A DNA stretch of 42,402 nucleotides, taken from assembly GCA_004375715.1 (NCBI GenBank), contig SOKP01000163.1:1-42402 (forward strand). Direction: 5' to 3'. Below, piece after piece: positions 32,063 through 42,402 of the stretch; positions within the stretch are counted from its first letter, which is position 1; the number at the start of each line of letters is the position of its first letter. The stretch comes from Promethearchaeota archaeon. GTDB taxonomy: Archaea > Asgardarchaeota > Lokiarchaeia > Sigyniarchaeales > SOKP01. The position numbers were made by a program, and so were the translations under genes. Under the pieces are notes generated by a model, which had not been told where the DNA came from, did no database searches, and saw only the letters and a list, made by a program, of their open reading frames with translations.

Positions 32063-34308
32063 TGACAAAGGTAAAATTAAACGGAGAAGAAGTAAGCGTT
32101 GAGATGCCAAAGGAAGAATTCGAAAAAGTTAAAGAGCTTCTAAATAGAGAGCCTACCATAACAGAACTAGGTGGTTTTGATGTTATGTGGAGTGAACATT
32201 GTTCGTATAAGTCGTCTCGTCCGAAACTTAAACTGTTTGAGGATGCTGAAGCGAATTACGACTATGTGTTAGCAGGTCCCGGAGAGGACGCTGGAGTAAT
32301 TGACATAGGGGACGGATACGCATTAGCATTTCGTATTGAATCTCACAATCATCCATCAGCAATAGAACCCTATCATGGTGCTGCTACAGGGATTGGTGGA
32401 ATTATCCGCGATGTTCTATGTATGGGGGTTCGACCGATTGCTCTGCTCGATCCTTTGAGATTTGGCCGTTTAGCGGGTAACTCACACGCTCAATGGTTAT
32501 TTAAGTATGTAGTGAAAGGAATTGCTGATTATGGAAACTGTACGGGCATTCCTACAATTGGTGGTGAAGTTGAATTTGACGATAGTTTTGAAAATAATTG
32601 TTTAGTTAATGTTGCTTGCATAGGTCTAGGCACAATAGAAGATTTTAAACACGCTCCAAGTAGAGCATATAACCCTGGCGATTATATAATCTTAATGGGA
32701 GGTTCTACGGGAAGAGATGGAATTCATGGTGTAACCTTTGCTTCTCGAACTCTAACTGAAATGTCCGAAGCCGATAGACCCGCAGTACAAATTGGTGATC
32801 CTTTTACAAAAAAGATGATAATCGAAGCTACTTTGGAAGCTGTGAAAACGGGATATGTTAGAGGTTTAAAAGATTTAGGAGGAGGAGGTCTTACTTGCGC
32901 AACTAGCGAATTAACTGGAGATGGCAATACCGGAGCAAACATAGAACTGAGAAAAGTTTTTACAGCAGAACCAGGTATGACTTCATACGAGATAATGCTA
33001 TCTGAATCTCAAGAACGAATGGCATTTATTGTTAAACCAGAAGGGTTAGAAACAGTTCTTAATGTATTTAGAAAGTATGAAGTGGCACACGCAGTAATAG
33101 GGAAAACAGACGATTCAAAAGTTTTGAAAGTTTTTGATGGGGACGAACTTGTAGTAAATATTCCAGCAAAAGCACTTTCCGTATCTCCAACCTTTAAAAG
33201 GCAAGAAAAACGACCTGATTATTTAGATCAACTGCTCGCCCAACCCACCCCTGAACCAAGCAAGCAAATCGAAGAAATTATAGAAATGCTTATTGCTTCC
33301 GAAAATATTTGTAGTAAGGAATGGATCTATCGGCAATATGACCACGAAGTTGGTGTAAGATCGGTAGTAAAATGTGGAGACGGAGATTCAGGAGTGTTAA
33401 GAATAATAGGTACAAATAAATTCATTGCTGCGAGTGTGGGCGTAAATTCTAAGCATTGTTATCTAGACCCTTACGAAGGAGCTAAAGGAGGGCTAGTAGA
33501 AATATGCGGAAATGTCATTACTACAGGCGCAAAGCCCATGGCGATGGTTAATTGTTGCAACTTTGGCAATCCAGAGATACCGGAATCGTTCTGGTATTTT
33601 TCTAAAGCTGTGGAAGGAATGAACGATTTTTGTAGATCTTTAAAAATACCGATAGTGGGAGGGAACGTTTCTTTTTATAACGAAGATGAAGTAACTAAGA
33701 CAGCAATCAAAGCTACACCTCAAATTATGATAGTTGGTTTAATCGAGGGATATGAAAACGTAATCACATTACCCTTTAAAAAAGCAGGAAACGACATTCT
33801 TATTCTTGGTGAAACAAAGGCTGAACTTGGTGGTTCAGAATATCATTCGGTGATCCATGGAATTGAAGGTGGGATTCCCCCTAAAGTTGATGAGGATAAG
33901 ATAAAAGTTAGATGGGATTTCATATCGGCGTTGTACGATAAAAAATTCATTAAGGCAAACCACGATGTAAATAAAGGGGGTTTTATAATAACTATTGCTG
34001 AAATGTGCTTTAAGAACAAGCTAGGAGCGGATTTAAATTTGAGTCGCTACAATGCTAATGACTTAAGAGATGATGAGCTGCTTTTTAGTGAAACAGTGGG
34101 TAGATTCATTATAGAAACTGAACCAGCAAGTTTAAATGACATTTTACTTCTCGCGAGTGAATTTAAAGTTAGCGTAACAAAATTAGGAGTTATACTAAAT
34201 CAGCCAAAAATCTTGATAAAAGGCTTGAAAAATCAAGAAATCTCCCTAGATATTAATAAATTAAAAGATTTGTACGATTCAACAATTCCTCGGTTGATGG
34301 ATATATGA
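32062..34308 (+). CDS. purL: Phosphoribosylformylglycinamidine synthase subunit PurL (small form)
   Basis: A 748-residue small-type PurL, which needs PurS and PurQ. Motifs include DVMWSEHCSYKSSRPKL with the catalytic His, AFRIESHNHPSAIEPYHGAATG (substrate and nucleotide site), LKDLGGGGLTCATSEL and the second-repeat HDVNKGGFIITIAEM. A GGAGG at 32049-32053 lies eight bases before the ATG at 32062, so the ATG is preferred over the TTG at 32059. The gene's stop is only 20 bases from a convergent gene of the accessory region. Confidence 0.96.
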   Translation: MTKVKLNGEEVSVEMPKEEFEKVKELLNREPTITELGGFDVMWSEHCSYKSSRPKLKLFEDAEANYDYVLAGPGEDAGVIDIGDGYALAFRIESHNHPSAIEPYHGAATGIGGIIRDVLCMGVRPIALLDPLRFGRLAGNSHAQWLFKYVVKGIADYGNCTGIPTIGGEVEFDDSFENNCLVNVACIGLGTIEDFKHAPSRAYNPGDYIILMGGSTGRDGIHGVTFASRTLTEMSEADRPAVQIGDPFTKKMIIEATLEAVKTGYVRGLKDLGGGGLTCATSELTGDGNTGANIELRKVFTAEPGMTSYEIMLSESQERMAFIVKPEGLETVLNVFRKYEVAHAVIGKTDDSKVLKVFDGDELVVNIPAKALSVSPTFKRQEKRPDYLDQLLAQPTPEPSKQIEEIIEMLIASENICSKEWIYRQYDHEVGVRSVVKCGDGDSGVLRIIGTNKFIAASVGVNSKHCYLDPYEGAKGGLVEICGNVITTGAKPMAMVNCCNFGNPEIPESFWYFSKAVEGMNDFCRSLKIPIVGGNVSFYNEDEVTKTAIKATPQIMIVGLIEGYENVITLPFKKAGNDILILGETKAELGGSEYHSVIHGIEGGIPPKVDEDKIKVRWDFISALYDKKFIKANHDVNKGGFIITIAEMCFKNKLGADLNLSRYNANDLRDDELLFSETVGRFIIETEPASLNDILLLASEFKVSVTKLGVILNQPKILIKGLKNQEISLDINKLKDLYDSTIPRLMDI

Positions 34309-34328
34309 AACAAGAAAAATCATTTTTA

Positions 34329-35165
34329 TCATTTATTTTCATAGAATTCTTTCTTGAAATTTCTCTTAATTGTCGTTAAAATCTCGAGCTTTGTAACTTT
34401 ATCTAACTGTTCAAACTTGTAAACCTTTAAGTTTGCGGTGTGATCCTTTCCATCTATAACGATTATGTGCTTTTCTTTTTTCTGGATCGTTAAAGTGAGA
34501 TCGTAATTAAGGTATAATTCGCAAAAACCTTGTTGTTTTTTGATGGGCGTTAAATCTTCATTTACCATATCTATAAAATCTAAGCAAAACCTATAAATCT
34601 CCTTGTGGTATTTTTCGATCCTCTCTTCTAAAAGTTGCTTTCTTTTTAGATGTATATCTCTTTTGGGGGCGTTTTTAATCAATTCTACAATTTTGTTTTT
34701 ATCTTCTTCTAACCTTTTTATTTCTTCTATTATTGGTTTTTCGGGCGTTGTTTGCTTAAGTTTTCTGATTTTTAGCCCGATTTCTTTTCTATCGTCGTTT
34801 AGTTGTTTTACTGAGGATTCGAAGTTGTCAAAAGAAATTAATAGCATCATTTTAAGCACTCTTAACCGTTTCTCAATTTCATTTATGCCCGAAATTTTAG
34901 CGATTCTTTTCATAGTTTTATTTAGTTCCTTCTGATAAGAATCGTTTGCAGGCGCGTTAAAAACGTCTAATTGCAATTTAAAACTTTGTCCCATTAGTTT
35001 TTTTTCGGCGTTTGTTACGGTTTTGGTAAAAATTCCCGTCTTAATCTTTTCTAAGGTGTGCTGGTATTTTTTCGGTATTTTGATGTCGCTTAAGAGATCG
35101 AGGTCTTCGGTAAAGTCGTTGTGTGAAAAAAAACTTTTTTTGGTTGCCTGTGCTTTTTCTCCCAT
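34329..35165 (-). CDS. Hypothetical coiled-coil protein of the accessory region
   Basis: A 278-residue charged protein not matched to any family. The centre (about residues 75-200) is strongly helical and coiled-coil-like, with segments such as EIEKRLRVLKMMLL, EIGLKIRKLKQ and IIEEIKRLEEDKNKIVELI. The C-terminal part, from about 205, has predicted beta strands (LYLNYDLTLTIQKKEKHIIVIDG). It lies at the left border of the accessory block, convergent with purL. An inverted repeat at 35205-35221 sits 40 bases upstream of its start and could be its operator. Confidence 0.6.
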   Translation of the reverse strand: MGEKAQATKKSFFSHNDFTEDLDLLSDIKIPKKYQHTLEKIKTGIFTKTVTNAEKKLMGQSFKLQLDVFNAPANDSYQKELNKTMKRIAKISGINEIEKRLRVLKMMLLISFDNFESSVKQLNDDRKEIGLKIRKLKQTTPEKPIIEEIKRLEEDKNKIVELIKNAPKRDIHLKRKQLLEERIEKYHKEIYRFCLDFIDMVNEDLTPIKKQQGFCELYLNYDLTLTIQKKEKHIIVIDGKDHTANLKVYKFEQLDKVTKLEILTTIKRNFKKEFYENK

Positions 35166-35204
35166 ACTTTTTTCTTCACGTTTTTGTTTGGTTTTTGATT
35201 AATT

Positions 35205-35221
35205 ATGATCACAACGATCAT
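35205..35221. promoter_or_regulatory. Inverted repeat ATGATC-N5-GATCAT, candidate operator
   Basis: Six-base arms around a five-base centre (ATGATCACAACGATCAT), located 40 bases upstream of the coiled-coil protein gene. The symmetry and size suit a dimeric regulator binding site. No regulator is identified. Confidence 0.35.
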
Positions 35222-35240
35222 TCTTAAGAATAAATAAAAA

Positions 35241-35293
35241 AAATTTTAGAGGGTAGATTGTCACTTCTTGTCAACTCCAAATTTTAGAGGGTA
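35241..35293. repeat. 15-bp direct repeat flanking the end of a small gene
   Basis: AAATTTTAGAGGGTA occurs at 35241-35255 and again at 35279-35293, 23 bases apart. The second copy encodes the end of the 109-residue protein and the first lies just past its stop. It looks like a short local duplication. Confidence 0.55.
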
Positions 35294-35590
35294 AAATTTA
35301 TTCCCCGTTTTTGAATAATAAGAACGAACTTTCGAATATTTCCATATTAGTTCGCACGTGGCTTTTAGTTGGGTTTTTTGCTTCTGTTTGCGCGAATTTC
35401 TGTAATCGTATTCTCTAATGTTAGATCGAAGCAAAACGATAGTTCCGTCAACGTTCCCGTTTATGTGGATTAGTTCCCGCGAGGAGATTTTATCTTGAAC
35501 TAAAAGCAATTCTACAGGGTTTAATCTTGTTAAATCAGATAAATTCAAAGCAAAATATTCGATGTGGTCCAAATTTGTTGTTATGCTCAT
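35261..35590 (-). CDS. Hypothetical protein of the accessory region
   Basis: A 109-residue protein without recognised family. The N-terminal half is mixed (HIEYFALNLSDLTRLNPVELL, then INGNVDGTIVLLRSNIREYD) and the C-terminal half is basic (NSRKQKQKTQLKATCELIWKYSKVRSYYSKTGNKF), suggesting nucleic-acid contact. The ATG is preceded by AAGGAGAAG and an A-run. It ends inside one copy of a 15-bp repeat and lies 16 bases past the neighbouring gene. Confidence 0.6.
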   Translation of the reverse strand: MSITTNLDHIEYFALNLSDLTRLNPVELLLVQDKISSRELIHINGNVDGTIVLLRSNIREYDYRNSRKQKQKTQLKATCELIWKYSKVRSYYSKTGNKFYPLKFGVDKK

Positions 35591-35606
35591 TTTTTGTTTC
35601 TTCTCC

Positions 35607-35987
35607 TTAGTAGGTTAAATTTCTTAAGTCTTGTTCGGTGGCTTTCATTACGCGCTTAACCCATTTTTTAAACTCTGGATATTCCATTGCTCCGGCTGTT
35701 AGACTTTCAAAGGCGAGTCCGTCTCGAATTACTAACCACTCGTCCCCAGCGTTAATCTGGTTGATAAAGCATAAGTTTTGAAAGTAAAAGGGTTGTCCTA
35801 ACATCCAATTTCCACGCGATAAAAAACTGTATAATTCTGCTATCGTCCCACATTGAAAAAAATCTTGAGTCTTTAGGGCTTCTTCAAACGCGCATATATC
35901 GTTTGCGTCTCCAGAACCCCTCATTCTTATCCAAGGGTTTTGTTGGGCTATGCTGAGCCATTTTTCAATTATTAAAATTTGTGTCAT
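35607..35987 (-). CDS. Hypothetical protein of the accessory region
   Basis: A 126-residue protein from the ATG at 35987 (MTQILIIEKWLS). The in-frame ATG at 36041 is rejected because those 54 bases belong to a leader sequence duplicated upstream of the next gene, where the matching part has no start. The protein has tryptophan- and aromatic-rich segments (NPWIRMRGSGDANDICAFEE, FLSRGNWMLGQPFYFQNL and GDEWLVIRDGLAFESL) and a helical tail. The shape recalls small viral accessory proteins but no family is recognised. Confidence 0.65.
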   Translation of the reverse strand: MTQILIIEKWLSIAQQNPWIRMRGSGDANDICAFEEALKTQDFFQCGTIAELYSFLSRGNWMLGQPFYFQNLCFINQINAGDEWLVIRDGLAFESLTAGAMEYPEFKKWVKRVMKATEQDLRNLTY

Positions 35988-36202
35988 TTTTCTTATCTCT
36001 TTATTTTTTGGCTTTGGTAAGTTCAGTAATGAAGTAGCCATATTAAAAATAAAGGAGTCTTTAGATTTATCAAAACATAAATTGAGTGGATTAAATTAAT
36101 TAATTGAAGTCATACCAATTATTTATGCGAAGCATTGGTTATCTTTAGTTAATCTTTTCTAATCCCATTAAGTAAAGTAAGAAAAAAAGGAAAAAATATA
36201 TT
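35988..36202. repeat. Duplicated ~215-bp leader region, copy 1
   Basis: The 215 bases between two minus-strand genes align along their length with the 216 bases at 36410-36625. Shared blocks on the minus strand include AAATAAAGAGATAAGAAAA just before the ATG (copy 2 has T for G), AAATCTAAAGACTC against AAATCTTAAGACTC, and GATAAC next to the centre. It probably contains the promoter and 5' leader. It holds the perfect mini-hairpin ATGCGAAGCAT at 36125-36135. Confidence 0.7.
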
Positions 36203-36409
36203 TTAAGATTCGACTTCTAAGGTGTGCTTATCTACGAATATAAATCCTTTTGCGCCTTTTGGAATGTATGCCGGTTTTCTCGTTTGCTGAACCCAGTCTT
36301 TAATAACTGATTGGTGAACTAATTGCCATCCCATAGAAAATAATTTGCTGTATAACTTAGATTTTAAGAATTTTTCTATTAGAGGGTGTAATTTTTGGTC
36401 TTTGTTCAT
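36203..36409 (-). CDS. Hypothetical small protein of the accessory region
   Basis: A 68-residue protein of unknown function, with a helical first half (PLIEKFLKSKLYSKLFSMGW) and a mixed second half (ARKPAYIPKGAKGF-like, ending FVDKHTLEVES). Lys/Trp/Gln content (HQSVIKDWVQQTRKPAYIPK) could suit nucleic-acid or protein binding. Its leader is a copy of that of the next gene downstream. The ATG follows AAAGAGATAATAAAA. Confidence 0.6.
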   Translation of the reverse strand: MNKDQKLHPLIEKFLKSKLYSKLFSMGWQLVHQSVIKDWVQQTRKPAYIPKGAKGFIFVDKHTLEVES

Positions 36410-36625
36410 TTTTATTATCTCTTTATTTGTTAGTCTTGTTATGTTTAGTAGTGAAATATTCGGTTAAATAATATTAGAGTCTTAAGATTTATTGAATAAT
36501 GAATTGTGCGAATTAATTAAGTTATATGGAGTAGTATTAATTGTCTATGGTGAGCGTTAGTTATCTTCAATCAAGTTATTATCCCAGTGAGTAGTAACAA
36601 GAAAGAAAAAAAAGAAAAAAAAATA
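36410..36625. repeat. Duplicated ~215-bp leader region, copy 2
   Basis: It aligns with copy 1 (35988-36202) over nearly its whole length, about 60-65% identical by eye. It separates the HAD gene from the 68-residue protein gene. On the minus strand it starts with a T-rich tract after the HAD stop, which may terminate that transcript, then a probable TATA region (CTTAATTAATTC) and a leader of roughly 100 bases. Confidence 0.7.
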
Positions 36626-37222
36626 TTACGCTGTTTCCATTATCGAATTACTTTGGTTTTTATGAGGGTTTAGTATTGAATTAAGTTCAGTCATAGATCT
36701 TGTTTGAGGGGTAGAAAAGTTTACTTCTAAAGTTTGGTTTGAGCTGTTTTTAGTGATCTGAGCTTTAAATATTGTATATCCTAGCTTTTCCAAAGCAGAG
36801 CAAAGCACGTCGTCGTCGTCAATGATTGTAATTGATTTGTATCTATTGCTTAACTTTATCTCGTTGATTAACTTTATCTTTCCGTTCCAATAGTTAATCA
36901 TAAAGGTTTCTTCGTCTATATCTTTTGCTCTCTTGCCTTGATTAAAGAAACTTTGATCGATTCGATATCCTTTCAGTTCTAACAAGTGTGTGATTACTCC
37001 TTCTTGGGTTTCGCTTCTACCGGTGATTATGATGTATTCGAAGTCTTCTAAAATTTTTTCGTTGGTTTGAAACATAAACTCGCTAAAAAAGGTGTACGCG
37101 TCTAACACGTGATTAATGGGCGTATAGTATACAAAATCGTTTTCTGGGTTGAAAAATAGCGTGCCGTCAAAGTCGATTATTACGAGGTCCTTCTTATCTC
37201 GTTTATTTTTATTTTCTGTCAT
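36626..37222 (-). CDS. HAD-superfamily phosphatase-like protein (polynucleotide-phosphatase / SAK-type)
   Basis: A 198-residue protein with HAD motifs in order: I, IIDFDGTLF with Asp17 and Asp19; II, ITGRSE; III, Lys in NGKIKLI; IV, TIIDDDDV. The TGR motif and size resemble the viral HAD group that includes 3'-phosphatase domains of polynucleotide kinases and 'Swiss Army Knife' RNA-repair-like proteins. It may remove phosphates from nucleic-acid ends or nucleotides. The C-terminal ~45 residues are polar and unassigned. It follows a zinc-ribbon protein gene by 9 bases, with CCAAGAAAATG as the start context. Confidence 0.78.
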   Translation of the reverse strand: MTENKNKRDKKDLVIIDFDGTLFFNPENDFVYYTPINHVLDAYTFFSEFMFQTNEKILEDFEYIIITGRSETQEGVITHLLELKGYRIDQSFFNQGKRAKDIDEETFMINYWNGKIKLINEIKLSNRYKSITIIDDDDVLCSALEKLGYTIFKAQITKNSSNQTLEVNFSTPQTRSMTELNSILNPHKNQSNSIMETA

Positions 37223-37231
37223 TTTCTTGGG

Positions 37232-37630
37232 TTAAATATTGTAGGTTTCTATCATTTCGTAGGCTTCTTTAACTGCCTTAATATCTTCGAGATAACACTT
37301 ATCAAAGTCGTTTAGGTCAAAATTTGATTCTATTACGTAGACTTTCCAAAAGTTATGCATCGTCTCAATGGTAACCTCTAAGGTTTTGGTTTCTTCGTTC
37401 ATAGGCGTATCAAACTCTATGTCTAACGCGCTTACGAAGTTAAAAAAAGTTTTGTTGTTCTCTTCGTGCAGGGCTTGGTAGCACTTTTTACAGACTATCC
37501 CGTGATATTTTGTTATAATTAATTTGTGGTGGAAGTTGTTACAATTCCAACATTCTTTCTTCTTAAAAAAATAATTTAGGTCTTTTCTGGTAATTTTACT
37601 TGTGTTCTTACTCTGATCTTGTTCTAACAT
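37232..37630 (-). CDS. Zinc-ribbon protein, unknown function
   Basis: A 132-residue protein. Residues 20-45 contain ECWNCNN and later VCKKCYQ, a CxxC-x18-CxxC zinc ribbon. The rest is acidic (SALDIEFDTPMNEETK, DKCYLEDIKAVKEAYEMI). Zinc ribbons of this kind in viral and plasmid genes usually bind nucleic acid or partner proteins. It lies between another zinc protein and the HAD gene on the same strand and probably shares their transcript. Confidence 0.65.
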   Translation of the reverse strand: MLEQDQSKNTSKITRKDLNYFFKKKECWNCNNFHHKLIITKYHGIVCKKCYQALHEENNKTFFNFVSALDIEFDTPMNEETKTLEVTIETMHNFWKVYVIESNFDLNDFDKCYLEDIKAVKEAYEMIETYNI

Positions 37631-37689
37631 TTTTCTGGTTGGTTGGCTTTAGTTTAATTTTGGAATATAAAAATAAAAAAAAATAAGGT

Positions 37690-37971
37690 TTAACTTACTA
37701 AAAGATTAACTTCTTGACAATTACTGCACTGATACCATACAAAACACACGTAATTGGTTTCTTCAATAATATAATCGTTCTTGCTTACGATTTCCGTATC
37801 ACATTTACCGCAATATTTCTTACGGTTCTCGTAATTGTAATTTATGTCAATGGTTTTGACTTGTTCCATTTTTTCGATTAATATTCTTTTTGCGTCAAAG
37901 TAGTTAATCCCTCTGTTCATAATCCTATCGAAATCGTTTCTGTAATTTTTACTTATCATTGGAATTTTCAT
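37690..37971 (-). CDS. Small zinc-ribbon protein, unknown function
   Basis: A 93-residue protein. The C-terminal half has CGKCDTEIVSKND and QCSNCQEVNLL, two CxxC knuckles 27 residues apart forming a likely zinc ribbon. The N-terminal half is basic and helical (SKNYRNDFDRIMNRGINYFD). The ATG is preceded only by an A-rich leader (ATCAAAAAAATG), as in neighbouring genes. Confidence 0.65.
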   Translation of the reverse strand: MKIPMISKNYRNDFDRIMNRGINYFDAKRILIEKMEQVKTIDINYNYENRKKYCGKCDTEIVSKNDYIIEETNYVCFVWYQCSNCQEVNLLVS

Positions 37972-38025
37972 TTTTTTGATTTTTTGGGGTTGGCATATTA
38001 AAAAAAAATTTAAAAATTGACTTTA

Positions 38026-38511
38026 CTAATCTCTAAGAAAATGCTCTAGATCTTCTAAAAAGTCTTCGAAACTGTCTCCGTCGGGAAGGTCGTTCTTTAA
38101 TAAGTTGTATTGGGTAAATAACATTGCTCCTTCTTTTGGTTGTAAGAATCCAAATTTTCTATAAACTGCTTGTGAAAGTTTTTCTACGTCTGTGAATTTT
38201 GAGAAGAATTTTTTAACATAAATCCACAATTCTTCTTCGGTTCTGAAAATTTCGTAGTAATCTAAGTTGTTCGAATGGTTTCTGAAATTTCCCTCTACTG
38301 CTTCGATATGAAAAATAAACTTGCTTTCGTGTCTTTGTTCGATTTCCATTTGAAAAAATCCGTTGGTTATTGATTTATGATTATCTGGATAGCATCTTTC
38401 GTAATTCCCGAAGTTAAAAGAAAGGTTGGCCTTTAAGTCTTTTACGATTTTACTAAAAGAGTCTCGCTTCACGGCGTTTAAGAAAACTTTTTTTATTTTA
38501 CTTAATACCAC
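38026..38511 (-). CDS. Hypothetical protein, first gene of a minus-strand array
   Basis: A 161-residue protein starting with GTG at 38511, with GAGGG nine bases upstream. It has a basic N-terminus (KIKKVFLNAVKRD), a central beta-rich part (FFQMEIEQRHESKFIFHIEAVEG) and an acidic C-terminus (GDSFEDFLEDLEHFLRD). No family is recognised. Its start overlaps the end of a possible 21-codon leader ORF, and a TATA box lies upstream at 38589-38597. Confidence 0.6.
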   Translation of the reverse strand: MVLSKIKKVFLNAVKRDSFSKIVKDLKANLSFNFGNYERCYPDNHKSITNGFFQMEIEQRHESKFIFHIEAVEGNFRNHSNNLDYYEIFRTEEELWIYVKKFFSKFTDVEKLSQAVYRKFGFLQPKEGAMLFTQYNLLKNDLPDGDSFEDFLEDLEHFLRD

Positions 38512-38567
38512 GATAACTTACCCTCTGTTAATTCGCTTAAACTGTATTTGCTTTTGGTCTTTGGCAT
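38502..38567 (-). CDS. Possible 21-residue leaderless leader peptide
   Basis: ATG at 38565-38567 opens MPKTKSKYSLSELTEGKLSW and one final Tyr. The ATG lies about 26 bases from the TATA box, so the transcript could begin right at it. The stop overlaps the GTG start of the 161-residue protein gene in another frame, and the GAGGG ribosome site of that gene lies inside this ORF. It could act in translational coupling. Evidence is positional only. Confidence 0.3.
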   Translation of the reverse strand: MPKTKSKYSLSELTEGKLSWY

Positions 38568-38893
38568 ATAAACTACTAAGAAAACTCAACTTATAAATAA
38601 ATTGGGGGTGTAAGATTTCTTAATGCTTCCCAAAGGTAAATTACATCAGGTATTAAGTTCAAAATAATCTTTTGGTTCTCGTTCGTTTTTTGTCTCCTGT
38701 AGTAAAAGTAAAAATGATAGGGGAGTTAGCTGTATTTTTTTCCAGTTTATTTTTCAAATTTTCCAGTCTATTATTCAAAAATTCCAGTTTATTTTTCAAA
38801 ATGAAGAGAAAAAGAATAAATAAAGTTATAAGTGGTATTTTTCTATAATTGCAATAAAAGTTTTGAATTAAGTAATTATAGAGGGGAATAAAA
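38512..38893. promoter_or_regulatory. 382-base divergent promoter region with direct repeats
   Basis: It separates the minus-strand array from the plus-strand genes. TATA-like TTATAAGT appears near both ends: minus strand at 38589-38597 and plus strand near 38826-38833. Between them lie three 21-bp direct repeats (38740-38801). No gene with good support is found in the gap. A minus-strand frame through it (38659-38943) lacks a proper start. Confidence 0.5.
38740..38801. repeat. Three tandem 21-bp repeats (iteron-like)
   Basis: TTCCAGTTTATTTTTCAAA at 38740-38758, TTCCAGTCTATTATTCAAAA at 38761-38780 and TTCCAGTTTATTTTTCAAAA at 38782-38801. Copies 1 and 3 match exactly over 19 bases; copy 2 differs at two. 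The 21-base period equals two helical turns, so a protein could sit on the same face of DNA each time, as at operators or replication iterons. Confidence 0.8.
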
Positions 38894-39466
38894 ATGGGTA
38901 TGTTTGATACTGTCGTGTTTCCAAAACCAATTAAGTGCGTCACTTGTGGAAAATTACACTTAGACGTGCAAACTAAACAATTCGATAAAACAATGACTAG
39001 CTATAAGGTAGGGGATATCGTCCCAACTAACGTTATTCATGGCGTTATCGAAGAAATTTTGTCTTGCGATCACGGTTCTGAGGGGGAGAAATATTATTTC
39101 GATCAAAAGTGCTATTTTGTAATTTGGCACGGTATTTTAATTGAGGTAGCAGGTAATATTGATAAGGCCAAAAATAAATTAGAATTGTTTGGGGTTGGAG
39201 ATTTGTTTTTCTTGTATCAGGCTTTATTCAAGGAACGGAACGATTTTCAAGCGAAATATCGACGGCTTAAAAGTTGGGTTAAAAGCTATCGAGAATTTGA
39301 GCAATTGTCAAAAGAAGAACAACAAAGAATTAGGTCTGAGGATCGCGAACTTAAAGATATTGGATACATTGATTTACTCCCTTATCTGTCAGAAGAAAAT
39401 CCTCTTCTCTCGTTTTTAGAAGAGTTAGAGGAGTCGGATCTTTCCGATAAAACTTTGCTTTTTTAG
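38894..39466 (+). CDS. Phage-type MGMFD protein, unknown function
   Basis: A 190-residue protein. The opening MGMFDTVVFPKPIKCVTCGK with a CxxC, followed by LDVQTKQFDKTMTSYKVGDIV, resembles many unannotated phage and prophage proteins that start MG(M/L)FD and describe a beta-rich zinc-containing fold. A later Cys is in ILSCDH and KCYFVIWHGILIEV. The C-terminal ~80 residues are charged and helical (KYRRLKSWVKSYREFEQLSKEEQQRI). Function is unknown. GAGGGGAATAAAAATG gives a good ribosome site. This is one of the main hints that the block is virus-derived. Confidence 0.7.
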   Translation: MGMFDTVVFPKPIKCVTCGKLHLDVQTKQFDKTMTSYKVGDIVPTNVIHGVIEEILSCDHGSEGEKYYFDQKCYFVIWHGILIEVAGNIDKAKNKLELFGVGDLFFLYQALFKERNDFQAKYRRLKSWVKSYREFEQLSKEEQQRIRSEDRELKDIGYIDLLPYLSEENPLLSFLEELEESDLSDKTLLF

Positions 39467-39471
39467 GGTTC

Positions 39472-39540
39472 TAACTATTTTTACAGCGAAGCTCTTGTTT
39501 ATCATCTGTTGATCTTACTAAACAAAGTAAGGTGAGGGTT
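39472..39540. repeat. Possible third, diverged copy of the leader repeat
   Basis: CAGCGAAGCTCTTGTTTATC and the bases after it (GTTGATCTTACTAA, then AAAGTAAGG) resemble the + strand of copy 1 (GCGAAGCATTGGTTATC, GTTAATCTTTTCTAA, AAAGTAAG). Identity is about two thirds by eye with gaps. GCGAAGC is present at 39486-39492 in both. Confidence 0.4.
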
Positions 39541-39592
39541 CTGGGGTGGGCACATTTGTTAGCTTTTGTTTATTATTGTGAACAAAATTGCG

Positions 39593-39769
39593 ATGTGGTA
39601 TCTATCTGAAATTAAAATAGTTAGAAAATTGAGACGGTTTTGGTATTCTGATGAAAAAATGAAAGAGAAGGTATTGATAAACCTCTACTCTGGTCTTTTA
39701 TTTATATATTTTTACGTTTATTATATTGTAAACAAAATGTTTACGCGTTTTAGGAAGGAAGAAAATTAA
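39593..39769 (+). CDS. Small single-helix membrane protein, possible
   Basis: 58 residues from the ATG at 39593; the frame is open from a TTG at 39566. It has a basic N-terminal part (YLSEIKIVRKLRRFWYSDEK) and one hydrophobic segment (LYSGLLFIYFYVYYIV) with a basic tail. The stop is 1 base before the ATG of the next gene, suggesting coupling, and its final codons supply the GGAAGGAAG ribosome site of that gene. No clear ribosome site precedes it. It may simply be an open leader. Confidence 0.4.
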   Translation: MWYLSEIKIVRKLRRFWYSDEKMKEKVLINLYSGLLFIYFYVYYIVNKMFTRFRKEEN

Positions 39770-39770
39770 A

Positions 39771-40397
39771 ATGACTAATAACGATTATTATTTAGGTATG
39801 GAAGATTCTCAGCTCTGGGAAATTTTTGTGGGTTCTCAGACGATAAAAGAGTTCATAACTGCTAATCCTCATCGTCTCTTGTTATTTAACGTAGCTTGTT
39901 ATGTTGAAGAATCTGAATTTTTTAAGGATTTAAACGATGAAGAAGTTGATTGGGTTAAAGTTGGTCTTTTCGATTATATTGTTGAACGTGCTGAAGAATG
40001 GGCAGAAAAAGAGGAGAAATGTTTTTATTGTCCTTATAATGATGTTTTGGTATCGGATGTTCCGTTAAATTCTGCATTTGATGATTCTGATGAAAACGAT
40101 GATTTTAGAGTCTTTAAAACTATCTATTATGGCATTAATGGAGAGATGATAATAGAGAAATATGACCTACAAATCTACAACAAGGGAATTAGAGATAAAA
40201 TGTCATATTGGGAGTCAATTGTGAATAACTCTCCATACGATGAACCTCATCAAGTTGAGAGGATTCAAAAGAAGGTTAAAAGTCTAATTATAAGCTCAAA
40301 AACATTTTCGATTAGAATTAACCGAGAAGAAAGCGAAGTAGAAACTATGAGAAAAATCAAAAATTTAATTTCCAAAGTAAATTATTTTAAAAGATAG
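39771..40397 (+). CDS. Hypothetical acidic protein of the accessory region
   Basis: A 208-residue protein with an acidic first half (EESEFFKDLNDEEVDWVKVG and VERAEEWAEKEEKCFYCPY, with one CxxC) and a basic C-terminal half (QVERIQKKVKSLIISSKTF, then ETMRKIKNLISKVNYFKR). The middle shows DDSDENDDFRVFKTIYYG. No family is recognised. GGAAGGAAGAAAATTAAAATG is a strong start context. It ends the plus-strand array. Confidence 0.65.
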   Translation: MTNNDYYLGMEDSQLWEIFVGSQTIKEFITANPHRLLLFNVACYVEESEFFKDLNDEEVDWVKVGLFDYIVERAEEWAEKEEKCFYCPYNDVLVSDVPLNSAFDDSDENDDFRVFKTIYYGINGEMIIEKYDLQIYNKGIRDKMSYWESIVNNSPYDEPHQVERIQKKVKSLIISSKTFSIRINREESEVETMRKIKNLISKVNYFKR

Positions 40398-40519
40398 GCT
40401 GTTTATTCCTTTTCGATTCAAAAATAAAAATAATTAAAGAAGGTTTGGCTTTATTACCTTGTAGGCATGTGTATAATTGTTAATAAATAAAAATGGGGAG
40501 TTAACGATTACTAAATCAC

Positions 40520-41473
40520 TTACACGGTGCAATATTTCTGGAAAGGGCAAATTTCACACTTGGAATCTATTTTTTTGCTGTTGCAAATTCCCATGATGCC
40601 TAACCTCGAAAGGTATAAATCTGCCCATAGCTTGTTTTGGGGATTTACGAGCTTAAGAAAATCCGAATACCTTAAAACATCTGCCCATTTACACCCATAT
40701 TCTCTGTCAAATACTCCTACTCGCTTTAAAACTCGCTTTACCGTAACATCTACCGGCGGTAATAGGTCGTTGTGGGGAATAAATGTCCAAAGGTGTAAGT
40801 CGGGACCGATCCCAACAACCCAGCGGAAAAAGAGTAAGTATCGCTTAAAGCACTTTTGAGATGTGAGCTTGGGGGCTCCGAATATTCGAGGTTCTCCGTG
40901 AAATTGTTCTACGAATTTAACAACAAAATCTGCGAAATTTTTTGACTCCTGATAGAGTTTTTTTGCGTTGGCTTCGAAAGATTTGTTCTGGTTTGTAATT
41001 ACCTTTAAAGTTTGCAAAATATATATGAGTTTGCAGACGTTCTTAAGGATTCGGTGATGGCTCCAACCAACTTGATTAACCGTTTTTCCGCTTTTACTTA
41101 CCCAATGCCACTTAAAATTTTTGAGCAGCGATTTTTTTGAATGTATTGAACTATTGAGAAAAGCAATAAAATCTCCTTTGTAAAAAGTTATAATAGATTT
41201 GGCAATACCGTTGAGCATAGGGATCATAAACTTTTGCACTTTAACTGAAAAATTTATAATCGAACAGAAAAAAGCCCAAGCATCTTGACCGTTTTCTTTG
41301 GAGATTTTTTTTGTGCAGGATAACACGCTGGTTTTTTCGAGGTTTGTTCCTTGCGTTTTTGTCTGCTGTTCCACGAAAGAAACTAAATCTATCCTAATGG
41401 TTTCGAGGAGCTTGTTTAAGTTTTCCACGTTTGAAAATTTACCATTTATATCTTTAAGAGATTGTGAACTCAA
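40520..41473 (-). CDS. HhH-GPD superfamily DNA-glycosylase-like protein with a [4Fe-4S] cluster loop
   Basis: 317 residues from TTG at 41471-41473. The TTG overlaps the upstream stop (TTGA) and has GGAG seven bases upstream; the longer frame from an ATG at 41542 lies within the upstream gene. The C-terminal half resembles HhH-GPD/DUF2400 proteins: KRYLLFFRWVVGIGPDLHLW, IPHNDLLPPVDVTVKRVLKR with Asp242 where the catalytic Asp sits, then LYLSRLGIMG. The last 21 residues have C297-x8-C306-x2-C309-x5-C315, the iron-sulfur loop of endonuclease III/MutY. The lyase Lys of the GxGxKTA hairpin is not apparent, so a monofunctional glycosylase is more likely. The N-terminal ~150 residues are helical and unassigned. 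Its partner is a DUF5591-like protein. Confidence 0.72.
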   Translation of the reverse strand: MSSQSLKDINGKFSNVENLNKLLETIRIDLVSFVEQQTKTQGTNLEKTSVLSCTKKISKENGQDAWAFFCSIINFSVKVQKFMIPMLNGIAKSIITFYKGDFIAFLNSSIHSKKSLLKNFKWHWVSKSGKTVNQVGWSHHRILKNVCKLIYILQTLKVITNQNKSFEANAKKLYQESKNFADFVVKFVEQFHGEPRIFGAPKLTSQKCFKRYLLFFRWVVGIGPDLHLWTFIPHNDLLPPVDVTVKRVLKRVGVFDREYGCKWADVLRYSDFLKLVNPQNKLWADLYLSRLGIMGICNSKKIDSKCEICPFQKYCTV

Positions 41474-42321
41474 TAGACTTCTCCTTCCTTCATTCTTTGT
41501 ATAACATTTGTAGCATATAACTCTGAAAACCCTTCGGAACATTGGCTTTTTTTTGCGACGGGCATTTTTTCGCTCTGGAATACCGGATTTTTCTTGCTAA
41601 GACTGATTTTCTTGATAACTTTTATATATTCCCAGTATTTTCTATTGGTGTATCTTCCTCTCGAATTAAGGAATTTTTCTAAGGATACCGGTTTTAATTT
41701 GGGCTTGATATTTTTGTTTTCTAAGTTCATTACGACTTCCTTAAAACTTTTAGCGGCGCTTGCGTATCCTTTTACCCCGCCTTCTGGAATTTCGTATATT
41801 AGCTTAAAAGGTTTTCTTGCTTTTTCGAGCGTTTGCTTGAGAACGAAGTAGTGGTGAGTCCCTCCAATGTAATAAATGTATTTGCGTTTCGGTTGTTTCC
41901 TTTTTACGATGTTAAGCCAATTGGCTAACCTAATGGTAAACGCTACTTCGTCTTGAATTGTTAAATCTTCGGTTGGAACGTTGTAATCGGGATGTTGTCC
42001 TTCCAACGCGTACGGAACTATTGTAAGAGGTTCTGAAATTACAACTTTTTCAAAATCTTCGCACCGGGTAATTGCTGATAAAAATTGGTGGGTCGTGCTA
42101 TGAGAAAACATTTTTTTACCGTATTTGGCACGAGTTTTCTTCGCGCTCGCACAAGGAAGGCAAATTAGGGGCTTATTTTTGTGTGGAAGCCAATTAACTG
42201 CGTAATAATACCACAAAATATTGGGGGTAGTAAAAAAAGATTGGTTGAACCCTGGCGAGTCGGGTTTTTTCTTTAAGTTGTGCTTTTTCGGTCCGGTGAT
42301 CTTAGTCTGATATGTCTTAAT
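41470..42321 (-). CDS. DUF5591-like protein (archaeosine synthase / TGT-associated domain)
   Basis: If read from ATT at 42319-42321 it has 283 residues; from TTG at 42216, 248. The segment ICLPCASAKKT with FSHSTTHQFLSAI, then VVISEPLTIVPYALEGQHPD and YNVP, matches DUF5591 of ArcS and archaeal TGT (PCSarKPYS...SH, then TSPLGvVPReLE..YP..hYDVPV). The family part just before it (TPNILWYYYAVNWLPHKN, like HPe..W..Y...Y.PP) extends upstream of the TTG, which supports the longer form. The middle has YIYYIGGTHHYF, and the C-terminal ~100 residues are basic and unassigned. In ArcS the domain works with a catalytic domain on a 7-deazaguanine in tRNA; no such catalytic domain is visible here. Function is inference. 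Confidence 0.62.
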   Translation of the reverse strand: MKTYQTKITGPKKHNLKKKPDSPGFNQSFFTTPNILWYYYAVNWLPHKNKPLICLPCASAKKTRAKYGKKMFSHSTTHQFLSAITRCEDFEKVVISEPLTIVPYALEGQHPDYNVPTEDLTIQDEVAFTIRLANWLNIVKRKQPKRKYIYYIGGTHHYFVLKQTLEKARKPFKLIYEIPEGGVKGYASAAKSFKEVVMNLENKNIKPKLKPVSLEKFLNSRGRYTNRKYWEYIKVIKKISLSKKNPVFQSEKMPVAKKSQCSEGFSELYATNVIQRMKEGEVY

Positions 42322-42401
42322 TAAAAATCTCCCTCGCTGATAGTTTTAATTTGGGTAGAAACGTGAATTTTGTCTAATTGAGGTTCTGAGTTCCAATCGC
42401 A
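42321..42401 (-). CDS. C-terminal end of an upstream gene (truncated by window edge)
   Basis: A frame open from the window edge ends at TAA 42321-42323 after CDWNSEPQLDKIHVSTQIKT and six more residues. It is not recognised. Its stop overlaps the possible ATT start of the DUF5591-like gene in TAATT, and the GAGGGAG ribosome site of that gene lies in its last codons, so it is likely the preceding gene of the same operon. Confidence 0.45.
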   Translation of the reverse strand, partial: CDWNSEPQLDKIHVSTQIKTISEGDF

Positions 42402-42402
42402 C

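Follow-up and report, generated by a model that had tools for sequence, protein, structure and literature searches.

A coupled pair of genes (gene 1 and gene 2, both on the minus strand) was identified toward the end of the window, i.e., the whole 42,402-nt contig analyzed, from an Asgard MAG of ~84% completeness; the pair, known solely from this locus, probably serves to modify or process 7-deazaguanine in DNA. Gene 1 (41470..42321; ~283 aa from a presumed ATT start) encoded a stand-alone DUF5591 protein resembling the core of ArcS, as judged from Pfam, motifs, and a tree, and gene 2 (40520..41473; 317 aa from a TTG start) encoded a HhH glycosylase-like protein of the DUF2400/TIGR02757 type, as judged from Pfam and an EndoIII alignment. 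An earlier note on this DNA had read the two as acting on a modified or deazaguanine base; the reading stood in part, the adjacency to DpdA speaking for a deazaguanine-in-DNA role of the gene 1 clade, but joint action on one base remained conjectural.

Layout of the gene pair and its island

The frame of gene 1 was open from 42345 to its stop at 41470, and gene 2 ended at 40520. The pair is two genes, coupled by a TTGA stop/start overlap (41470..41473, minus strand) in which the TTG start of gene 2 at 41473 had two bases in common with the TGA stop of gene 1 (41472-41470). The junction read GAAGGAAGGAGAAG-TCTA-TTGA, with the Shine-Dalgarno-like GAAGGAAGGAGAAG located at 41478..41491 (minus strand) ahead of gene 2 and the strong ribosome site AGGAAGGAG preceding the TTG, in agreement with the overlap and ribosome site described before. 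Gene 1 contained no ATG, and its earliest in-frame ATG, GTG, or TTG was a TTG at 42216; since a start there would lose the conserved N-terminus, the implied start was the ATT at 42321, behind the Shine-Dalgarno-like GAGGGAGA (42328..42335, minus strand). A 71-bp relic of the gene 1 leader (~20 codons) was recovered from G008, a genome of the same genus (G008:C37, L150:1030-1101), and it had an ATG at the position of an AAG in the gene 1 leader; this relic suggests that the element was once present in G008 and later lost, and its ATG, taken with the ATT start of gene 1, makes some decay possible.

Up to 34308, the window carried chromosomal genes ending in purS, purQ, and purL, and the island (34309..42402, delimited by a homology break) began directly after purL. 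In the same-genus genomes covering this site, DNA homology ran through purL and stopped at or before ~34306-34330, and the island was not found in them; single island genes recurred, scattered, on other accessory contigs. The pair thus belongs to an accessory island that is probably mobile. Besides the pair, the island contained small genes, and those scanned gave no Pfam match; the sole recognizable virus-type gene was a polynucleotide-kinase-like gene (36626..37222, minus strand; phrog_415, E = 7e-9), and neither the gene 1 nor the gene 2 protein had a match in PADLOC or PHROGs. The island was cut by the contig end, which lay 81 bp beyond the presumed gene 1 start. The earlier note had pointed to DpdA and QueC as genes to look for nearby: the DpdA/TGT search found no DpdA in the contig or its assembly, and QueC gave no more than a weak match in the source genome, but DpdA did occur beside other members of the gene 1 clade (see below). 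The source genome encoded full-length ArcS too.

Gene 1 and the DpdA-type neighbors of its clade

By profile score, gene 1 is a genuine but distant DUF5591 member, barely above the Pfam cut-off (PF17884: 2.5e-6, 27.8 bits vs. a cut-off of 26; 28.1 bits in the genome-wide search), which bore out the family named at the outset. Its sequence profile matched Archaeoglobus fulgidus AF0587 (PDB 2q07; 2.6e-11), which SCOP presumably placed among UDG-like folds. The AF2 model of gene 1 (mean pLDDT 75, pTM 0.72) resembled the predictions for phage YaaA and DUF6884 (E 2.5e-4 to 0.07); its resemblance to uracil-DNA glycosylases was weak (best E 0.015). In the motif alignment, gene 1 retained C, K, S, and H of the ArcS motif PCSAKKPYSxSxSH, and its catalysis is predicted from these residues; the motif had a 10-residue insertion, and KM (KKM) replaced the KP found in others. 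Gene 1 and its closest kin also shared a C-terminal extension of ~80 aa (RGRYT...GFSELY).

Gene 1 and ArcS (archaeosine synthase alpha subunit, acting on tRNA) shared the DUF5591 core with PC...K...S-x2-H, which was common to the whole stand-alone clade and ArcS, but gene 1 was stand-alone, had no TGT-like N-terminal domain, and belonged to a separate clade; SEP was found in the stand-alone proteins, including gene 1, instead of TSP in the aligned ArcS proteins. A candidate assignment of gene 1 as true ArcS was rejected (NCBIfam ArcS NF040592: 21.9 bits vs. a cut-off of 440; ~283 aa; outside the ArcS clade). In a tree of 30 DUF5591 domains (in which the row ArcS_G180 is really a short stand-alone frame), the stand-alone DUF5591 proteins were split from ArcS with support 100/100, and gene 1 was grouped with that of viral G228 and the mobile-element copies with support 96/95; its close relatives came from G063 (two copies), G070, G072, and the IMG/VR viral contig G228. 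Stand-alone members had 167-283 aa, vs. 600-800 aa for ArcS.

Stand-alone DUF5591 genes adjoined a TGT/DpdA-type gene in at least 14 records, among them ten Asgard loci, a contig from IMG/VR, and the viruses STSV1/2/4: a TGT search among the carriers gave this adjacency in G072:C479, viral G229, G148, G150, G095, G220, G196, and G197, and further such neighbors were found in G178, G042, and G149. In Sulfolobus virus STSV2, STSV2_16 matched the stand-alone DUF5591 profile (1.6e-30) and overlapped STSV2_15, annotated as queuine tRNA-ribosyltransferase; STSV1 and STSV4 had the same DUF5591 gene. In G229, G066, and G072, the DpdA-like proteins retained the Asp residues and the zinc site CxCxxC...H that serve TGT enzymes in general. 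A DpdA profile search was positive for 19 of the 228 Asgard genomes. In G066, G009, and G038, DUF6884 took the place of DUF5591 beside DpdA, and thus DUF5591 and DUF6884 alternate as the DpdA neighbor; the DUF6884 of G066 matched PADLOC DpdC. The DpdC/DUF6884/YaaA (DUF328) proteins and stand-alone DUF5591 shared a position beside DpdA in Asgard loci and a similar predicted fold, but stand-alone DUF5591 and the G066 DUF6884 had no significant profile match.

The chemistry of the known systems is as follows: (i) ArcS adds lysine to preQ0 (PMC11298593); (ii) DpdC of bacterial systems hydrolyses dPreQ0 to dADG, and TGT-plus-HerA systems without DpdC have been described (PMC12839542); and (iii) Vibrio phage nt-1, with ArcS and DpdA2, contains dG+, dPreQ0, and dADG, so that virus-borne ArcS homologues with DpdA are already known (PMC6884629). 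That DpdA-type TGTs recur beside the stand-alone clade, both in viruses and in Asgard loci, supports a deazaguanine-in-DNA role for it, and the comparison of sequences and neighborhoods supports action of this clade on preQ0 in DNA. For the subclade of gene 1 itself (G063, G070, G072:C713, and G228), DpdA was adjacent in none of the loci examined, no TGT was present across the 93 kb of G228, and the other members had differing downstream genes. STSV1/STSV2 (TGT plus DUF5591, STSV2_15/16) and nt-1 (DpdA2 plus ArcS) are likewise carriers of a virus-borne DUF5591/ArcS-like protein, but their partner is TGT/DpdA, whereas the visible neighbor of gene 1 is a DUF2400 glycosylase-like protein.

Several further loci were recorded. 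The "hypothetical protein" overlapping queuine tRNA-ribosyltransferase in STSV1/2/4 (L143:3875-5285, STSV2_15/16) was DUF5591 (ArcS-core). A genome from the genus of the gene pair itself had an island with QueC, PTPS (QueD family), a QueE-like radical-SAM gene, DUF6884, and a DpdA-type TGT (G009:C13:21000-40900, L178); an N4/N6 methylase gene and a gene weakly matching PglZ also lay in this candidate archaeal Dpd/BREX-like island. G066 displayed the gene order DUF6884, TGT, a gene of unknown function, STAND-type NTPase, NurA, HerA, and DUF2400 (G066:C1:2532000-2570500, L117/L118), followed, past the DUF2400 gene, by several very large genes of unknown function plus an AAA ATPase. A conserved chromosomal trio of DUF6884-like (shown by Pfam in G095), DpdA-like TGT, and DUF5591 genes was found in one Asgard family (G095, G196, G197, and G220; L035, L127, L128, and L129), neighbored by ATPase-like genes and a gene resembling family-4 UDG. 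Two DUF5591-carrying mobile elements (L030:2199-3041 and L031:7696-8505) shared a radical-SAM gene (mobile-pair B/SPL-like) and a recombinase-like gene, and one of them carried ThyX; the radical-SAM neighbors in the G070 and G072 elements were considered as RaSEA partners and rejected, as they matched mobile-pair or SPL-like families, and none was present in the island of the gene pair. The viral DUF5591 protein of G228 (L115:10779-11447) began with a Rho_N/SAP-like N-terminus that scored below the Pfam cut-off and is possibly a nucleic-acid-binding module.

Gene 2 and the DUF2400 family

Gene 2 matched Pfam DUF2400 (PF09674) at 9.4e-17 and 62.2 bits (cut-off 25) and TIGR02757 at 50.9 bits, below the cut-off of 139. 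It had been called a HhH-GPD glycosylase: its family spoke for a glycosylase-like protein (DUF2400, with EndoIII and MutY as the closest solved structures), but standard HhH-GPD (PF00730) was rejected at 14.8 bits vs. a cut-off of 26.2. The loop and the motif on which that call had drawn were both present, i.e., Cys 297/306/309/315 of the 317-aa form gave Cx8Cx2Cx5C at the C-terminus, a predicted [4Fe-4S] cluster (Pfam EndIII_4Fe-2S: 12.4 bits, below 20.5), and the Asp of "PVD" was invariant across all aligned homologues. The only solved structures hit by a profile of five gene 2 homologues were those of EndoIII and MutY, at weak E-values (0.05-2.7), and the catalytic Asp and Cys cluster of DUF2400 were in register in the EndoIII alignment; profile comparison with the archaeal Q_salvage-like family gave E 6e-5 over the Asp segment. 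Gene 2 was thus like EndoIII/MutY in the catalytic-Asp region and C-terminal Cys cluster and like Q_salvage (Qng1-type) in its Asp segment, but compared to these HhH glycosylases it had no clear GxG hairpin and displayed Cx8 instead of Cx6 spacing. The single-sequence AF2 model of gene 2 (pLDDT 36) had no confident stretch, and the HhH fold is therefore inferred from sequence alone; at the family level, these comparisons support gene 2 as glycosylase-like, related to EndoIII/MutY and distantly to the queuosine-salvage glycosylase. Asgard proteins matching Q_salvage and, weakly, DUF2400 (L036:6495-7532 and L037:6713-7735) tied queuosine-salvage glycosylases to the DUF2400 HhH family.

Clear DUF2400 carriers made up three of the 228 Asgard genomes (that of the gene pair, G066, and G081). 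The homologues from G066, G081, and the Archaeoglobus profundus provirus ApPV1 harbored a C-terminal extension that gene 2 did not have; the extension had no Pfam match, and its R-A-D...E-V pattern suggests a PD-(D/E)XK nuclease. In G081, the gene immediately after DUF2400 with this nuclease-like extension encoded a Csx1-type CARF-HEPN protein (L120:15697-18352). DUF2400 was located beside RecN-like, NinB, and polymerase genes in Bacteroidales phages and directly 3' of a DNA alkylation repair gene in a plasmid; these phage and plasmid loci thus comprised repair and replication genes, and no deazaguanine genes were annotated in them.

Joint action or mere neighborhood

No second DUF5591 plus DUF2400 pair was found in viral contigs, IMG/VR, phages, plasmids, or 228 Asgard genomes (the genome-contig collection was searched for gene 1 only). 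The earlier note had stated that a pair found only here would refute its reading, and this was the case; the single instance and the phage and plasmid DUF2400 genes lying among repair genes also spoke against the two genes acting on one base. Two of the three Asgard DUF2400 carriers (the contig of the gene pair and G066) were near 7-deazaguanine-type genes, the G066 gene being within 10 kb of the DUF6884/DpdA/HerA/NurA cluster, but defense and mobile islands cluster such genes anyway, which tempers this figure, and about one in 21 DpdA loci had a nearby DUF2400 (not all 21 neighborhoods were inspected). The strong coupling and the two carriers in three, set against island clustering and the one locus in about 21, give joint action a moderate weight, with mere neighborhood nearly equal to it.

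Our best explanation, held tentatively at a little short of an even chance, is a mobile two-gene unit in which gene 1 converts DpdA-placed preQ0 in DNA and gene 2 acts on the same DNA; the data establish the gene structure, the families, the conserved residues, the clade membership, and the recurrent DpdA linkage of the gene 1 clade, and we infer the substrate, the reaction, its direction, and whether the two proteins are functionally tied at all. The pair would be a two-gene transcription unit of a virus-derived or other mobile island in a Lokiarchaeia-type Asgard archaeon. A TGT/DpdA enzyme, encoded by the host, by a helper element, or by the upstream portion of the element lost at the contig end, would first place preQ0 into DNA; the gene 1 protein, as a stand-alone ArcS-core/DpdC-like enzyme, would work on the preQ0 nitrile in DNA, with dADG (an amide), a lysine adduct, or deoxyarchaeosine as the product; and the gene 2 protein, as a HhH-fold DUF2400 DNA glycosylase or base-flipping protein, would target that DNA as well, its most likely task being to remove or read the modified (or unmodified) guanine. 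Counted against this explanation were the gene 1 subclade and the assembly without DpdA, the single pair, the repair context of DUF2400 elsewhere, the unconfident model of gene 2, the degraded look of the gene 1 start, and the loss of the KP proline in the motif (KKM).

A real possibility, if one that we would not call likely, is that the two genes are neighbors without a common substrate, the product of gene 1 being a deazaguanine enzyme, that of gene 2 an ordinary base-excision repair glycosylase carried by a virus, and the coupling no more than a result of a compact genome: the repair setting of DUF2400 in Bacteroidales phages and the plasmid, the single occurrence of the pair, and the other downstream genes in the gene 1 subclade all agree with it, but two of the three clear Asgard DUF2400 carriers were beside 7-deazaguanine-type genes. 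It is unlikely that the stand-alone DUF5591 protein supplements host ArcS, or stands in for it, on preQ0-15 tRNA, with gene 2 unrelated; DUF5591 is indeed the core of ArcS, a tRNA-preQ0 enzyme (PMC11298593), the source genome has full-length ArcS, and G228 has no TGT on 93 kb, but the stand-alone clade is separate from ArcS, its members are far shorter, and a second TGT, of the DpdA type, accompanies many of them, including several viral ones. The pair is very unlikely to be a decaying remnant in which the ATG of gene 1 is gone and full proteins are no longer made from the unit: ATG, GTG, and TTG are absent ahead of the conserved region of gene 1, and G008 retains only the leader codons with ATG instead of AAG, but the gene 1 frame is open over >280 codons with intact motifs, both ribosome sites are strong, and table 11 permits ATT starts. 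A bolder and decidedly improbable reading would make the DUF2400 HhH protein a DNA glycosylase or base exchanger specific for 7-deazaguanine, which substitutes for DpdA or erases its product and, with the UDG-like-fold enzyme, installs, removes, or senses archaeosine-type bases in Asgard virus DNA.

In the literature searched (open-licence texts), neither the DUF5591-DUF2400 coupling nor the Asgard DpdA islands seem to have been described, and no report was found of Asgard archaea or their viruses with DNA modified by 7-deazaguanine. The present findings point to such modification in these archaea and viruses. DUF5591 and DUF6884, occurring in the same position beside DpdA, make it possible to test directly if ArcS-type chemistry extends to DNA, and gene 2, if specific for the modified base, would be an enzyme reading or removing 7-deazaguanine from DNA.
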